DNA of 64,000 nucleotides, from assembly GCF_004761865.1 (NCBI RefSeq), contig NZ_SJDM01000005.1, forward strand, positions 1-64,000, written 5' to 3'. Shown here one piece after another: positions 51,168-57,753 of this stretch (positions within the stretch are counted from its first letter, which is position 1; each line of letters opens with the position of its first letter). The notes under the pieces are model-generated. The model saw only the letters and a program-made list of their open reading frames with translations. It did not search any database and was not told the DNA's origin. Both the position numbers and the translations under genes were made by a program. This DNA comes from Crenalkalicoccus roseus (GTDB lineage Bacteria > Pseudomonadota > Alphaproteobacteria > Acetobacterales > Acetobacteraceae).

Positions 51168-51845
51168 TCAGATCCCGGCCGCCACCGGCCCCTCGACGAT
51201 CTCGTCGCGCACCGCCTTCACCCCCGGCACGCGGGAGGCGATGGCGACCAGGCCCTTCCGCACCGCCGGGGAGTTGCAGTAGCCGTGCAGCGTCACCTCC
51301 CCGTCCTGCACGTCGAAGAACACGTAGGGCGCGTCGGCCCAGGGCAGGCGAGCCATCTCCGCCTGCACCGCGGCACGGATGGCGGCGTCCGAGGTGTCCT
51401 TCGCCGGGGCCAGCAGCGCCCGCAGCAGGTCGGCACGGGAGAGGATGCCCACCAGCACGCCGTCATGCACCACCGGCAGCCGGCGCACCTTGTGCTCGTC
51501 GAGCAGGCGCGCGGCGTGCTCCGCGGTCATGGATTCGGTCGCCGTGATCACCTCCGTGGTCATGATGTCGCGCGCCGTCGCGCCATGGGCGCGGGCGTAG
51601 CGCAGCGCCGCCCCCTCGCGGTCGTAGAACAGGGCGCTGAGCAGCCCGCGGCGCTCCGGCGGGTCCTCGGTGGCCAGCCGCCGGATCAGGTCGGCCTCGG
51701 AGACGACGCCGAGCAGCATTCCCCAGTTGTCCGTCACCGGCACCGCCGAGAAGCCGCGGTCCGCCAGCAGGCGTGCCACCGCCATCACCGGCGTGTCCGG
51801 CGGCACGGAGATGACCTTGCGGGTCATGATCTCACCGACCTTCAT
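51168..51845 (-). CDS. CBS-pair and BON domain protein
   Basis: A 225-residue cytoplasmic protein: two CBS motifs (MKVGEIMTRKVISVPPDTPV...LLGVVSEADLIRRL, about 1-60; ARDIMTTEVITATESMTAEHAARLL...VGILSRADLLRAL, about 90-145) and a C-terminal BON domain (about 150-220, DVQDGEVTLHGYCNSPAVRKGLVAIASRVPGVKAV). CBS pairs bind adenyl nucleotides; BON domains associate with membranes or lipids. Such proteins are often stress- or hypoxia-induced. The start codon is 58 bp from a perfect FNR/FixK-type palindrome, consistent with oxygen-responsive control. GGAGG precedes the ATG. Confidence 0.92.
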   Translation of the reverse strand: MKVGEIMTRKVISVPPDTPVMAVARLLADRGFSAVPVTDNWGMLLGVVSEADLIRRLATEDPPERRGLLSALFYDREGAALRYARAHGATARDIMTTEVITATESMTAEHAARLLDEHKVRRLPVVHDGVLVGILSRADLLRALLAPAKDTSDAAIRAAVQAEMARLPWADAPYVFFDVQDGEVTLHGYCNSPAVRKGLVAIASRVPGVKAVRDEIVEGPVAAGI

Positions 51846-51902
51846 GCGCTCTGGCCTCCTTGCTGGCGGGCGTCAGCCTCCTGCCGGATCCGCGGGGCCG
51901 CC

Positions 51903-51916
51903 TTGATAGGGATCAA
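51903..51916. promoter_or_regulatory. FNR/FixK/Anr-type binding site
   Basis: TTGAT-AGGG-ATCAA, a perfect match to the TTGAT-N4-ATCAA consensus. It lies in the 244-bp divergent gap between the CBS-BON gene (start codon 58 bp away on the minus strand) and the SSADH gene (174 bp away). A site centred about -41.5 would put the CBS-BON transcript start near 51868. Confidence 0.75.
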
Positions 51917-52089: not shown

Positions 52090-53568
52090 ATGCTGGACGT
52101 CCTCGGGAAGCTGCCGCTGAAGGATCCGGACCTGTTCCGGCAGGCCAATTGCATCGGCGGCCAGTGGGTGCAGGCCGACAGCGGCAAGACCATCGTGGTG
52201 AGGAACCCCGCCACGGGCGAGCCGGTGGGCGAGGTGCCGGCCATGGGCGCGGCCGAGACCCGCCGCGCCATCGAGGCGGCGCACAAGGCCTACCCCGCCT
52301 GGCGCGCCATGCTGGCCAAGGAGCGCTCCGCCATCCTGCGCCGGCTGTTCGAGCTGATGCTCGAGCACACGGACGACCTCGCCACCATCATGACCGCCGA
52401 GCAGGGCAAGCCGCTCGCCGAGAGCAAGGGCGAGATCGCCTATGCCGCGAGCTTCATCGAGTGGTTCGCCGAGGAGGGCAAGCGCGTCTACGGCGAGACC
52501 ATCCCGCAGAACGCCAAGGGCCGGCGCATCCTGGTGCTGAAGGAGCCGATCGGCGTCTTCGCCGCCATCACGCCCTGGAACTTCCCCGCCGCCATGATCA
52601 CCCGCAAGACCGGGCCGGGCTGGGCCGCGGGCTGCACGGGGGTGATCCGCCCCGCCTCGCAGACGCCCTTCTCGGCGCTCGCCATCGCCGTGCTGGCGGA
52701 GCGCGCCGGGATGCCGCCCGGCGTGTGCAACGTCATCACCGGCCCCTCGGGCGAGACGGGGAAGGAACTCACCTCCAACCCACTGGTGCGCAAGCTCACC
52801 TTCACCGGCTCGACCGAGGTCGGGCGGGTGCTGCTCGCGCAGTGCGCACCGACCATCAAGAAGACCTCGATGGAACTCGGCGGCAACGCGCCCTTCATCG
52901 TGTTCGACGACGCGGACCTGGACGCGGCGGTGCAGGGCGCGATGGCGTCGAAGTACCGCAACACCGGCCAGACCTGCGTCTGCGCCAACCGCATCCTGGT
53001 GCAGGACGGCGTCTACGATACCTTCGCGGAGAAGCTGAAGGCGGCGGTGGAGGCGCTGAAGGTCGGCCCGGGCATGGAGCCCGGCGTCACCCAGGGGCCG
53101 CTGATCAACGCCGACGCCGTGGCGAAGGTGGAGGAGCACATCGCGGACGCGGTGGAGAAGGGGGCGCGGATCGTCACCGGCGGCAAGCGCCATGCCCGCG
53201 GCGGCAACTTCTTCGAGCCGACCATCCTCGCCGAGGTGCCGCACCAGGCGAAGATCTTCACCGAGGAGACCTTCGGGCCGGTGGCGCCGCTGTTCCGATT
53301 CAGGACGGAGGAGGAGGCGGTCCGCCTCGCCAACGACACCCCCTTCGGCCTCGCCGCCTATTTCTACGCCCGCGACGTCGGCCGCATCTTCCGCGTCGCC
53401 GAGGCGCTGGAGACCGGCATGATCGGCATCAACGAGGGGATCATCTCGACCGAGGTCGCGCCCTTCGGCGGCGTGAAGGAGAGCGGCCTCGGCCGCGAGG
53501 GCAGCCACCACGGCATCGACGAGTACCTGGAGGTGAAGTACCTCGCCCTCGGCGGCATCGGCACCTGA
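52090..53568 (+). CDS. gabD: NAD(P)-dependent succinate-semialdehyde dehydrogenase
   Basis: Aldehyde dehydrogenase of 492 residues, very close to GabD in layout: IEWFAEEGKRVYGETIPQ, TPWNFPAAMITRK, the Glu in MELGGNAPFIVFDDADLD, catalytic Cys in GQTCVCANRI and EVAPFGGVKESGLGREGS. It oxidises succinate semialdehyde to succinate. Unusual: the cofactor strand reads GPGWAAGCTGVIRPAS, with Arg187 where nearly all relatives have Lys, and nearby Gly/Trp changes. It begins a group with MaoC and glutathione reductase genes (gaps 7 and 8 nt). A related glutarate or other semialdehyde substrate is possible. Confidence 0.9.
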   Translation: MLDVLGKLPLKDPDLFRQANCIGGQWVQADSGKTIVVRNPATGEPVGEVPAMGAAETRRAIEAAHKAYPAWRAMLAKERSAILRRLFELMLEHTDDLATIMTAEQGKPLAESKGEIAYAASFIEWFAEEGKRVYGETIPQNAKGRRILVLKEPIGVFAAITPWNFPAAMITRKTGPGWAAGCTGVIRPASQTPFSALAIAVLAERAGMPPGVCNVITGPSGETGKELTSNPLVRKLTFTGSTEVGRVLLAQCAPTIKKTSMELGGNAPFIVFDDADLDAAVQGAMASKYRNTGQTCVCANRILVQDGVYDTFAEKLKAAVEALKVGPGMEPGVTQGPLINADAVAKVEEHIADAVEKGARIVTGGKRHARGGNFFEPTILAEVPHQAKIFTEETFGPVAPLFRFRTEEEAVRLANDTPFGLAAYFYARDVGRIFRVAEALETGMIGINEGIISTEVAPFGGVKESGLGREGSHHGIDEYLEVKYLALGGIGT

Positions 53569-53575
53569 GCGGGCG

Positions 53576-54022
53576 ATGGCGCTGTATCTCGAGGACCTGT
53601 CGCCGGGGCAGCGCTTCACCGCGGGCCCGCTGACGGTCACGGCGGAGGAGATCGTCGCCTTCGCCCGGCAGTACGACCCGCAGCCCTTCCACCTCGACCC
53701 CGAGGCGGCGAAGGCGCACCTCTTCGGCGGCCTCGTCGCCAGCGGCTGGCACACCGCGGCGCTGACCATGCGCCTGGTGACGCAGGCGCTGGAGGGGCTC
53801 GCCTGGGGCGTGGTGGGCGGCGGCGGCGACCTGCAATGGCCCCGCCCGGTCCGCCCGGGCGAATCGCTGCATCTCGAGGTGGAGGTGCTGGAGGTGACGC
53901 CCTCCCGCTCGAGGCCCGACCGCGGCACGGTGCTGGTGCGCAACACCACCCGGGTCGGGTCCGGAGAGCCTGTCTTCGTCTTCACCCCGCGGCTCGTCGT
54001 GCCGCGACGGCCGCAGGAGTGA
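53576..54022 (+). CDS. MaoC-like hot-dog dehydratase
   Basis: A 148-residue single hot-dog protein of the MaoC family. The N-terminal LEDLSPGQRFTAGPLTVTAEEIVAFARQYDPQPFHLD supplies the hydratase Asp/His pair (DPQPFHLD), and FGGLVASGWHTAALTMRL follows. Members hydrate enoyl-CoAs or act as related thioester-binding enzymes. It lies 7 nt after the SSADH gene and 8 nt before the glutathione reductase gene, so all three are probably one operon. Substrate unknown. Confidence 0.85.
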   Translation: MALYLEDLSPGQRFTAGPLTVTAEEIVAFARQYDPQPFHLDPEAAKAHLFGGLVASGWHTAALTMRLVTQALEGLAWGVVGGGGDLQWPRPVRPGESLHLEVEVLEVTPSRSRPDRGTVLVRNTTRVGSGEPVFVFTPRLVVPRRPQE

Positions 54023-54030
54023 CGGCACGC

Positions 54031-55407
54031 ATGGCCCACGACTACGACCTCTTCGTCATCGGCGGCGGCTCGGGCGGCGTGCGCTGCGCCCGCATCGCCG
54101 CCTCGCACGGCGCCCGCGTGGCGGTGGCGGAGGAGCGCTTCTGGGGCGGCACCTGCGTCAATGTCGGCTGCGTGCCGAAGAAGATCATGGTCCAGGCCGC
54201 CGAGTACGGGCAGTGGGCCGAGGACGCCGCCGCCTTCGGCTGGGACATGACGGTGCGCGGCCATGACTGGGCGCGCCTCGCCGCCGCGCGGGATGCGGAG
54301 GTGGCGCGCCTCGCCGGCCTGTATCGCCGGATGCTGGAGGGCGCCGGCGTCACCTGCTTCGAAGCGCGCGCCACCCTCGCCGGGCCGCACGAGATCGAGG
54401 TGGGGGGCAGGCGCGTCAGCGCGGCGCGCATCGTCGTCGCCACCGGCGGCCGCCCGGTGCGGCCGGAGATCCCGGGGGCGGAGCTCGGCATGCTCTCGGA
54501 CGACGTCTTCGCGCTGCGGAGCATGCCGAAGCGCCTCATCGTCGTCGGCAGCGGCTACATCGCGCTCGAATTCGCCTGCATCCTGCGCGGCCTCGGGGCG
54601 GAGGTGGACCTGGTCTACCGCGCCGAGCTGCCGCTGCGCGGCTTCGACCAGGACATCCGCGCCGCGATGAAGGAGGCGCTGGACGCGCAGGGCATCCGCC
54701 AGCACCAGAGCTGCCTGCTCGACCGCCTGGAGCGGAGCGGCGGGGGGCTCCGCCTGCACCTCAGGGGCGGGCGGGTGGTGGAGGGGGACGCGCTGCTCTT
54801 CGCCACCGGCCGCGCGCCGAACACCGAGGGGCTCGGCCTCGACCGCGCCGGGGTGTGCTGCACGGAGGGCGGCGCCATCGAGGTGGACGAGGAGCACGCC
54901 ACCACGGTCCCGCACATCTTCGCCATCGGCGACGTGACCGACAGGCTGAACCTGACCCCGGTGGCGACCGCGGCCGGGCACGCGCTGGCCGACACGCTGT
55001 TCGGCGGCAGGCCGCGCCGCACCGACTACCGCAACGTGCCGACGGCGGTGTTCACCTCGCCGCCCATCGGCACGGTCGGGCTGACGGAGGCGGATGCGGC
55101 GGCGCTCGGCCCGGTCGACATCTACCTCGCGCGCTTCACCCCGCTGCGCCACACCATCACCAGGCGCGAGGGCCGCAGGACGCTGATGAAACTGGTGGTC
55201 TGCCAGACCACGCGGAAGGTGCTCGGCGCCCACATGCTGGGCGAGGACGCGCCGGAGATCCTGCAGGGCATCGGCATCGCCGTGGTCGCCGGGCTGAGCA
55301 AGGAGGATTTCGACCGCACCATCGGCATCCACCCGACGGCGGCGGAGGAGTTCGTCACCCTGCGCACCCGCACGCGGGAGGCGGGGGTGCGCGCGGCCGC
55401 CGAATAG
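54031..55407 (+). CDS. gor: Glutathione-disulfide reductase
   Basis: Pyridine nucleotide-disulfide oxidoreductase of 458 residues. FAD motif GGGSGGVRCAR, redox pair in GGTCVNVGCVPKK, NADPH-binding GSGYIALEFACILRG, and the dimer-domain His/Glu of HPTAAEEF are all present. The GGGSGGVR sequence and length favour glutathione reductase over lipoamide dehydrogenase. It regenerates GSH in the cytoplasm. The ATG at 54031 with CAGGAG upstream is preferred over in-frame starts inside the MaoC gene. Its pairing with an aldehyde dehydrogenase may reflect aldehyde or redox stress. Confidence 0.9.
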   Translation: MAHDYDLFVIGGGSGGVRCARIAASHGARVAVAEERFWGGTCVNVGCVPKKIMVQAAEYGQWAEDAAAFGWDMTVRGHDWARLAAARDAEVARLAGLYRRMLEGAGVTCFEARATLAGPHEIEVGGRRVSAARIVVATGGRPVRPEIPGAELGMLSDDVFALRSMPKRLIVVGSGYIALEFACILRGLGAEVDLVYRAELPLRGFDQDIRAAMKEALDAQGIRQHQSCLLDRLERSGGGLRLHLRGGRVVEGDALLFATGRAPNTEGLGLDRAGVCCTEGGAIEVDEEHATTVPHIFAIGDVTDRLNLTPVATAAGHALADTLFGGRPRRTDYRNVPTAVFTSPPIGTVGLTEADAAALGPVDIYLARFTPLRHTITRREGRRTLMKLVVCQTTRKVLGAHMLGEDAPEILQGIGIAVVAGLSKEDFDRTIGIHPTAAEEFVTLRTRTREAGVRAAAE

Positions 55408-55419
55408 GCCGCGCCCCGG

Positions 55420-57753
55420 TCAGCCGGCCTCCGCCACCGCCGGCGCGCGGACCGCCCGCGGCGCATCGGGGGCGACCGGGCCGTCCGCCAGCTCCGCCAG
55501 CACCTCCTCCTCGGCGGCGAGGTGCAGGGTCAGCAGCGCCTCCAGCGCGAACAGGCTGCGCCGCAGCTCCGGCGCCACCTCCGCCCAGGCGCCCTCGCGC
55601 CGGGCGACCTCCGCCAGGGCACCGATGCGCGCCGCGAGCGCCTCGATCTCGGTGTGCATGCGCACGAGCGGGCTCATCGGGTCGCGCCCGCCGAGGCGCC
55701 GCGCCGCTTCCGGGTAGAGGACGCGCTCCTCCTCCCGATGGTGCGGCAGCAGCTCGGCGCGCAGCTCCGCCTGCAGCGCCTCGATCAGCGGCAGGGCGGT
55801 GGGCGCCTCGGTGACCGCCTCGCCCGCCTCCCGCAGCCGCTCGGCCAGGCGGCGCAGCCCGGCATGTTCCGCCGTACGCTCGGCGAGGCCGGCCTCGGGC
55901 GGCACCGCCGGGGCGGCAGCGTCCTCGCGGCCCGGCCGCAGCACGGTGAGGGCGAACAGGATGGCGGCGACGTCGATGCCCTCCTGCAGCAGCGCCCCGG
56001 CCAGCGGCGAGAGCAGCCCGGCGGCGGCGGCGACCATCGCCGCGCCCGATAGGCCCATGCCGAGGGCGATCGCCTGCAGCGCGATGCGGCGGGCGCGGCG
56101 GGCGATGGCGATCGCCTCCGCGGCGCGGTCCAGCCGGTCCACCAGCAGCACCACGTCCCCCGCCTCGGCCGCCGCCGCGGTGCCGTGCGCGCCCATGGCG
56201 ATGCCGACATCGGCGGCGGCGAGCGCCGGGGCGTCGTTCACCCCGTCGCCGATCATCGCGGTGGGGGCGCGCGCCGCCTCCTCCCGCACCGCCGCGATCT
56301 TCTCCGCCGGCGCGCGGTCCGCCAGCACCCCGTCGAGGCGCAGCGCCGCCCCGACCGGCGCGGCGGCGGCGGCGCGGTCACCGGTGACCATCAGCAGCCG
56401 CCGCACGCCGAGGGCGCGCAGCCGCCGCACCGCCCGCGGCGCCTCCGGCCGCAGCCCGTCGGCCATGACGAAGGCGGCGGCGGCGCGGCCCTCCACCGCC
56501 AGCCAAGCGACCGAGCCGGCGGCGCCGGCCACGGTCGCCACCGCGCCGAGCCGCTCGGGCCGCGCGATGCCCTGCCCGCGCAGGAAGCCCTCGCTGCCGA
56601 GGGCGAGGCGCCTGCCCCCCACCCGGCCGGCGAGGCCGCCGCCGGCCGTTTCCTCCACCCCCTCCGGCGCCAAGAGGGCCAGCCCGCGCGCCTGCGCCGC
56701 CGCGACCAGCGCCGCCGCGACGGGATGCGTCGAGCCCTGGGCCAGCGAGGCGGCGAGGGCGAGCGCCGCGTCGCGCCCGAGCCCCTGGTCGGCCTCCACC
56801 GCGGCGAGGCGTGGGCGCCCCGGGGTCAGCGTGCCCGTCTTGTCGAACAGCACGGTGTGGATGCGCGCCAGGCGCTCCAGCGCGCCGCCGCCCTTGACCA
56901 CGATGCCGCGCCGCGCCGCACGGCCGATGCCGGCGACGAGGGCAATCGGCGCGGCCAGGATCAGCGGGCAGGGGGTGGCCACCACCAGCACCGCCAGCGC
57001 CCGCACCGGGTCGCCCGACAACGCCCAGGCGCCGCCGGCCATGGCGGCGGTGAGGGCGAGGAAGCCGAGCGCCCAGCGATCGGCGAGGCGGGCCAGCGGC
57101 GGGCGCGCCTCCGCCGCCGCGCGCGTCAGGCGCAGGATGGCGGCGTAGGTGCTGGCCTCGGCGTCCGAGGTGGCGCGCATGCGGAAGGCGGGGCCGGCGT
57201 TCACCGCGCCGCTGCGCAGCGCCGCGCCACGGGCGAGGCTCGCCGGCAGCGGCTCGCCGGTGAGCGCGCTCTCGTCGAGCGTCGCCGCCTCGTCCTCCAG
57301 CACGCCATCGGCGGCGACGGTCTCGCCGGGGCGGACCAGCAGGCGGTCGCCGGGGCGGATGGCCCCGACGCCGATCTCCTCGATGCCGGTGGCGGTGACC
57401 CTGGCGGCATGGCGCGGGGCGCGGGCGATCAGCTCGGAAAGGGAGCGGGTGGCGCGGCCCTCGGCCCAGGCCTCCAGCGCCTCGCCGCCGGCCACCATCA
57501 GGGCGATCACCGCCGCCGCCGCCGCCTCGCCGAGCAGCACGGCGACCAGGATCGCCGCCAGCGCGATGACATCCACGCCGATGCGCCCGCCGGCCAGGGC
57601 GCGCACCACCCCGAGGCCGACATGCGCGGCCACGGGCAGCGCGGCGGCGGACCAGACCCAGGCGGCCTCCCGCGTCTGGCCGAGGAGGTGCAGCGCGCCC
57701 CCCGCCGCCAGACCGGCCAGGACCCACAGGAGGAGGAAGGGCAGGCGGGGCAT
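55420..57753 (-). CDS. P1B-5-type metal ATPase with C-terminal hemerythrin-like domain
   Basis: A 777-residue P-type ATPase. Core motifs (numbered from the ATG at 57753): TGE 165-167, membrane motif TPCPL 260-264, phosphorylated Asp304 in DKTGTLT, STHP 341-344, TGD 457-459, GDGVNDAP from 502. There is no N-terminal HMA domain. After about residue 610 comes a four-helix hemerythrin/HHE module: His630, H671-H672xxxE, H700xxxE and H744xxxE, which would hold a diiron site. TPC plus a hemerythrin-like tail defines P1B-5 ATPases such as S. meliloti Nia, implicated in Ni/Fe efflux. A longer start at 57861 would overlap the divergent hydrolase gene. Confidence 0.85.
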   Translation of the reverse strand: MPRLPFLLLWVLAGLAAGGALHLLGQTREAAWVWSAAALPVAAHVGLGVVRALAGGRIGVDVIALAAILVAVLLGEAAAAAVIALMVAGGEALEAWAEGRATRSLSELIARAPRHAARVTATGIEEIGVGAIRPGDRLLVRPGETVAADGVLEDEAATLDESALTGEPLPASLARGAALRSGAVNAGPAFRMRATSDAEASTYAAILRLTRAAAEARPPLARLADRWALGFLALTAAMAGGAWALSGDPVRALAVLVVATPCPLILAAPIALVAGIGRAARRGIVVKGGGALERLARIHTVLFDKTGTLTPGRPRLAAVEADQGLGRDAALALAASLAQGSTHPVAAALVAAAQARGLALLAPEGVEETAGGGLAGRVGGRRLALGSEGFLRGQGIARPERLGAVATVAGAAGSVAWLAVEGRAAAAFVMADGLRPEAPRAVRRLRALGVRRLLMVTGDRAAAAAPVGAALRLDGVLADRAPAEKIAAVREEAARAPTAMIGDGVNDAPALAAADVGIAMGAHGTAAAAEAGDVVLLVDRLDRAAEAIAIARRARRIALQAIALGMGLSGAAMVAAAAGLLSPLAGALLQEGIDVAAILFALTVLRPGREDAAAPAVPPEAGLAERTAEHAGLRRLAERLREAGEAVTEAPTALPLIEALQAELRAELLPHHREEERVLYPEAARRLGGRDPMSPLVRMHTEIEALAARIGALAEVARREGAWAEVAPELRRSLFALEALLTLHLAAEEEVLAELADGPVAPDAPRAVRAPAVAEAG

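Follow-up and report, generated by a model that had tools for sequence, protein, structure and literature searches.

Upstream of a gene for a protein with CBS and BON domains, Crenalkalicoccus roseus carries a 14-base palindrome of the kind that FNR or FixK proteins bind. Is this palindrome an operator, and if so, for which gene and for which regulator? The window (the whole stretch of 64,000 nucleotides that was analysed) has TTGATAGGGATCAA at 51903-51916. A sequence check bore out the perfect palindrome that had been reported from the letters alone: both 5-base arms are exact, and the central AGGG is not palindromic. Read on the other strand, towards the CBS-BON gene, the site is TTGATCCCTATCAA, which fits the definition of the FixK2 box, TTGA/C-N6-T/GCAA (PMC9104804). 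It lies between the CBS-BON gene (51168-51845, minus strand) and a gene for succinate-semialdehyde dehydrogenase (SSADH; 52090-53568, plus strand) and is upstream of both. From the centre of the box to the start codon is 64 bp for CBS-BON, the same value as in the sequence-only reading, and 180 bp for SSADH. The features of the locus are:

51168..51845, minus strand: CBS-BON protein, 225 amino acids, two CBS domains and one BON domain; predicted target (domain search, alignment A1)
51855..51861, minus strand: Shine-Dalgarno-like AAGGAGG before the CBS-BON ATG (sequence)
51868, minus strand: transcription start predicted for a box at -41.5 (class II geometry)
51875..51880, minus strand: GAGGCT, the predicted -10 element, with its start 29.5 bp from the box centre (family-wide profile)
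51900-51902, minus strand: conserved GGC extension directly after the box, on the CBS-BON side
51903..51916, minus strand: predicted FixK/FNR box, centred at -64 from the CBS-BON ATG
52090..53568, plus strand: NADP-dependent SSADH, divergent neighbour, probably not a target (above the NCBIfam cut-off)
53576..54022, plus strand: protein with a MaoC-like dehydratase domain, downstream of SSADH (domain search)
54031..55407, plus strand: glutathione-disulfide reductase (gor), downstream of SSADH (domain search)

The exact palindrome, TTGATN4ATCAA, is rare. It occurs three times in the 4.43 Mb genome, as compared to zero times for the reversed control, so it is indeed more than chance would give, as had been claimed. 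If one mismatch is allowed, the window has two matches (shuffles of the window average 0.16), and the one at 51903-51916 is the only exact one.

If the box controls the CBS-BON gene, then it should recur at related genes. Upstream of each of the four CBS-BON genes in this genome is a box or near-box, centred at -64 (the exact one), -68 (with one mismatch), -62, and -166. Across the Acetobacteraceae (Siccirubricoccus, Roseicella, Dankookia, Roseomonas, and others), the motif TTG[AC]N6[GT]CAA is centred between -55 and -110, and mostly between -55 and -72, in 80 of 99 distinct CBS-BON upstream regions. Just 2 of the 99 have it centred between -250 and -121. The reversed motif was found in none of these upstream regions, shuffled versions average 0.18, and other genes from the same loci have the motif in 25 of 282 cases. 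(Fisher's exact test gives P = 4e-41, which ignores the relatedness of the sequences and so overstates their independence; the effect size is unaffected by this.) A smaller initial set, with the motif at 33 of 49 CBS-BON genes and 13 of 148 background genes, is superseded by the set of 99 and 282.

Conservation is less even among the seven nearest orthologues of the CBS-BON protein (68-72% identity): one has a perfect box, three have GCGCAA as a half-site, one has GCACAA as a half-site, one has its sole box at -159, and the last has none. The box is thus kept across the family, though unevenly among the closest relatives. In a more distant and less selected group of CBS-BON upstream regions, the box stands between -130 and -45 in 16 of the 34 that come from genomes with FixK and in none of the 6 whose genomes have no detected FixK (two-sided P = 0.064). 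The absence of the box goes with the absence of FixK in these genomes, which is suggestive only.

The spacing between the box and the promoter is conserved as well. When the CBS-BON upstream regions are aligned by their boxes, a single -10-like hexamer appears (T 49%, A 90%, T 66%), which starts 29.5 bp past the box centre, and no such hexamer is seen at any other offset from the box. Class II promoters of CRP and FNR have their box centred at -41.5; a box placed there would put the hexamer at -12 to -7, in keeping with the class II arrangement. The corresponding hexamer in the window, GAGGCT, retains only the conserved A at position 2 and T at position 6. The flanks of the box also mark its direction, because a G directly after the box is common (72 of 80 CBS-BON upstream regions, with GGC in 40 of 80) and GCC before the box is found in none of the 80 (L035-L064, L127-L206). 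In the window, the GGC is on the CBS-BON side. The class II placement that had been proposed for this gene is therefore supported by a box and a -10 spacing that are conserved across the family. Because of these two features, the palindrome is best read as part of a FixK-activated class II promoter; judging from the sequences, we consider it very probable that it is a FixK-type operator for the CBS-BON gene.

Could the box instead, or also, govern the divergent SSADH-MaoC-gor genes, as the sequence-only reading had suggested? The box is upstream of SSADH too (centred at -180), and in Bradyrhizobium diazoefficiens the SSADH gene bll3998 is activated by FixK2 (PMC6515984). Yet among 30 orthologues of SSADH (at least 80% identity), the one in the window is alone in having a box within 300 bp upstream; the other 29 have none, which speaks against SSADH as a conserved target. 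Furthermore, the hexamer that faces SSADH at the class II distance is TCCCGC, which is not -10-like, the flank on that side is CCG instead of GGC, and the seven closest orthologues of CBS-BON are not next to an SSADH gene (within flanks of 1.5 kb). Control of SSADH-MaoC-gor thus seems unlikely, and the suggestion is not sustained. Adjoining gor, at 55420-57753 on the minus strand, is a gene for a heavy-metal P-type ATPase that carries a hemerythrin domain at its C-terminus and resembles the P1B-5 class.

The genome has other sites of this type. Besides the three exact palindromes there are two further matches to TTGAYN4RTCAA, and all five, among the matches listed, are outside of the genes that a simple gene caller predicts. 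When a single mismatch is tolerated, there are at least 75 sites, as compared to 33 for the control. (The names of the genes next to these boxes come in part from reading the sequences.) A search for more exact sites had been proposed, and it yielded two. One is between ccoN, the first gene of the cbb3-oxidase operon, and a gene for a DUF2189 protein, and the other is between genes for a P-type ATPase and a KefB-like antiporter. The other two sites are between genes for a CRP/FNR-family regulator and a NarK-like transporter, and upstream of an uncharacterised gene of 371 amino acids. The cbb3 operon is a standard target of FNR and FixK (PMC2908626). At the ccoN/DUF2189 box (L006:7644-7657), TAGGCT stands at the class II distance towards the DUF2189 gene, which may be a direct target of FixK. 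At the ATPase/KefB box (L007:7338-7351), TAG-type hexamers are at the class II distance on both sides; this could possibly be a two-way FixK promoter.

Which regulator is likely to act at these sites? A search of the genome for CRP/FNR-family proteins found five above the cut-off for HTH_Crp_2, including FixK. None of these five has the N-terminal cysteine cluster of a [4Fe-4S] FNR, which speaks against FNR, so the regulator is most likely FixK. The FixK protein (L008:8499-9299) matches the structure of FixK2 (4i2o, E = 1.8e-40), keeps the recognition-helix motif E-x-x-S-R as ETVSR, and has no [4Fe-4S] cysteine cluster. Its gene is in a cluster (L008:7835-12291) with genes for a lone receiver protein, a FixJ-like protein, and a FixL-like kinase. 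The PAS domain of the kinase (L008:10642-12291) matches the heme-PAS structures of FixL (E ~ 1e-54), and the RHD-YI-RY segment with the conserved histidine is aligned, so this kinase is a predicted heme sensor, FixL. Of the proposal of FNR or FixK control, then, the FixK part is supported, with a FixL/FixJ/FixK set in the genome, and the FNR part is not.

Another candidate is a second FNR-like regulator of the DNR/NnrR type (226 amino acids, C56), which is encoded beside narK, would respond to nitrogen oxides, and could be the main protein to bind the box. It has the motif ETLSR and matches the structure of DNR (3dkw), and there is a box between its gene and narK. Its relatives are found in just 12 of 150 genomes of the family, while the CBS-BON box is widespread and relatives of FixK are found in 130 of 150 (the two counts used different E-value limits, 1e-30 and 1e-15). 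This makes FixK the better candidate, and we think it quite improbable that the second regulator is the main one.

A chance match without function is a very remote prospect: matches of 14 bases do turn up at random, and the exact box is missing from some close orthologues, but the exact palindrome is rare across the genome, it keeps company with the sites at the cbb3 operon/DUF2189, KefB/P-type ATPase, and NarK/CRP-family regulator genes, and the position of the box and the -10 spacing hold across the family.

Activation by FixK would work as follows. As oxygen falls, the heme-containing FixL would phosphorylate FixJ, and phosphorylated FixJ would raise the level of FixK. Bound to the box at -41.5, FixK would then recruit RNA polymerase via the weak -10 element (GAGGCT), so that transcription of CBS-BON would start near 51868. 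We infer that CBS-BON would be expressed alongside the cbb3 oxidase and other genes of the low-oxygen response.

A structure search gave matches to 1xkf and 1y5h, which we take to be Hrp1 (Rv2626c), a CBS protein of the hypoxic response in Mycobacterium tuberculosis. Hrp1 is likewise a small protein with a CBS pair and a tie to hypoxia, which for CBS-BON is a predicted one. Hrp1 is under the control of DosR, not FixK, and is not known to have a BON domain.

Another parallel is the FixK2 regulon of B. diazoefficiens, in which FixK2 controls the CBS gene blr6074 via the box TTGAGCTGCATCAA (PMC9104804) and which also includes blr4646, induced by microoxia (PMC6515984). The two systems share TTG(A/C)N6(T/G)CAA before a CBS gene, the FixL-FixJ-FixK cascade, and the cbb3 oxidase in the same regulon. 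In contrast, C. roseus belongs to another order of Alphaproteobacteria, its predicted target carries a BON domain as well, and the regulation here is predicted from sequence. In their study of the FixK, FNR, and DNR regulons, Dufour et al. 2010 predicted a FixK regulon that takes in a CBS-domain protein with a putative role in signal transduction, and they placed the cbb3 oxidase in the FNR core (PMC2908626). A predicted CBS-domain target of FixK is common to both; in their account FixK is generally restricted to Rhizobiales, whereas here it is in Acetobacteraceae. Our literature searches found no paper on FixK and FixL in Acetobacteraceae, and none that linked these CBS/BON genes to hypoxia or FNR.

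Because the control of CBS proteins by FixK2 is already published for Bradyrhizobium, the boxes described here extend a known kind of regulation. What they add is a family-wide and position-exact case for placing CBS-BON genes in the low-oxygen regulon of FixK in Acetobacteraceae. The FixL-FixJ-FixK set in this family is also useful, given that a comparison from 2016 reported only FnrN, and no FixK, among the Rhodospirillales studied (PMC4999443). Tentatively, CBS-BON proteins might serve the Acetobacteraceae as a general low-oxygen module, with several paralogues per genome, nearly all of them under FixK class II promoters that have an additional conserved G(G)C right behind the box; the proteins might sense adenine nucleotides as respiration slows and act at the envelope via BON. 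The boxes also offer a route to the function of CBS-BON, which is to study these proteins in cells grown at low oxygen.
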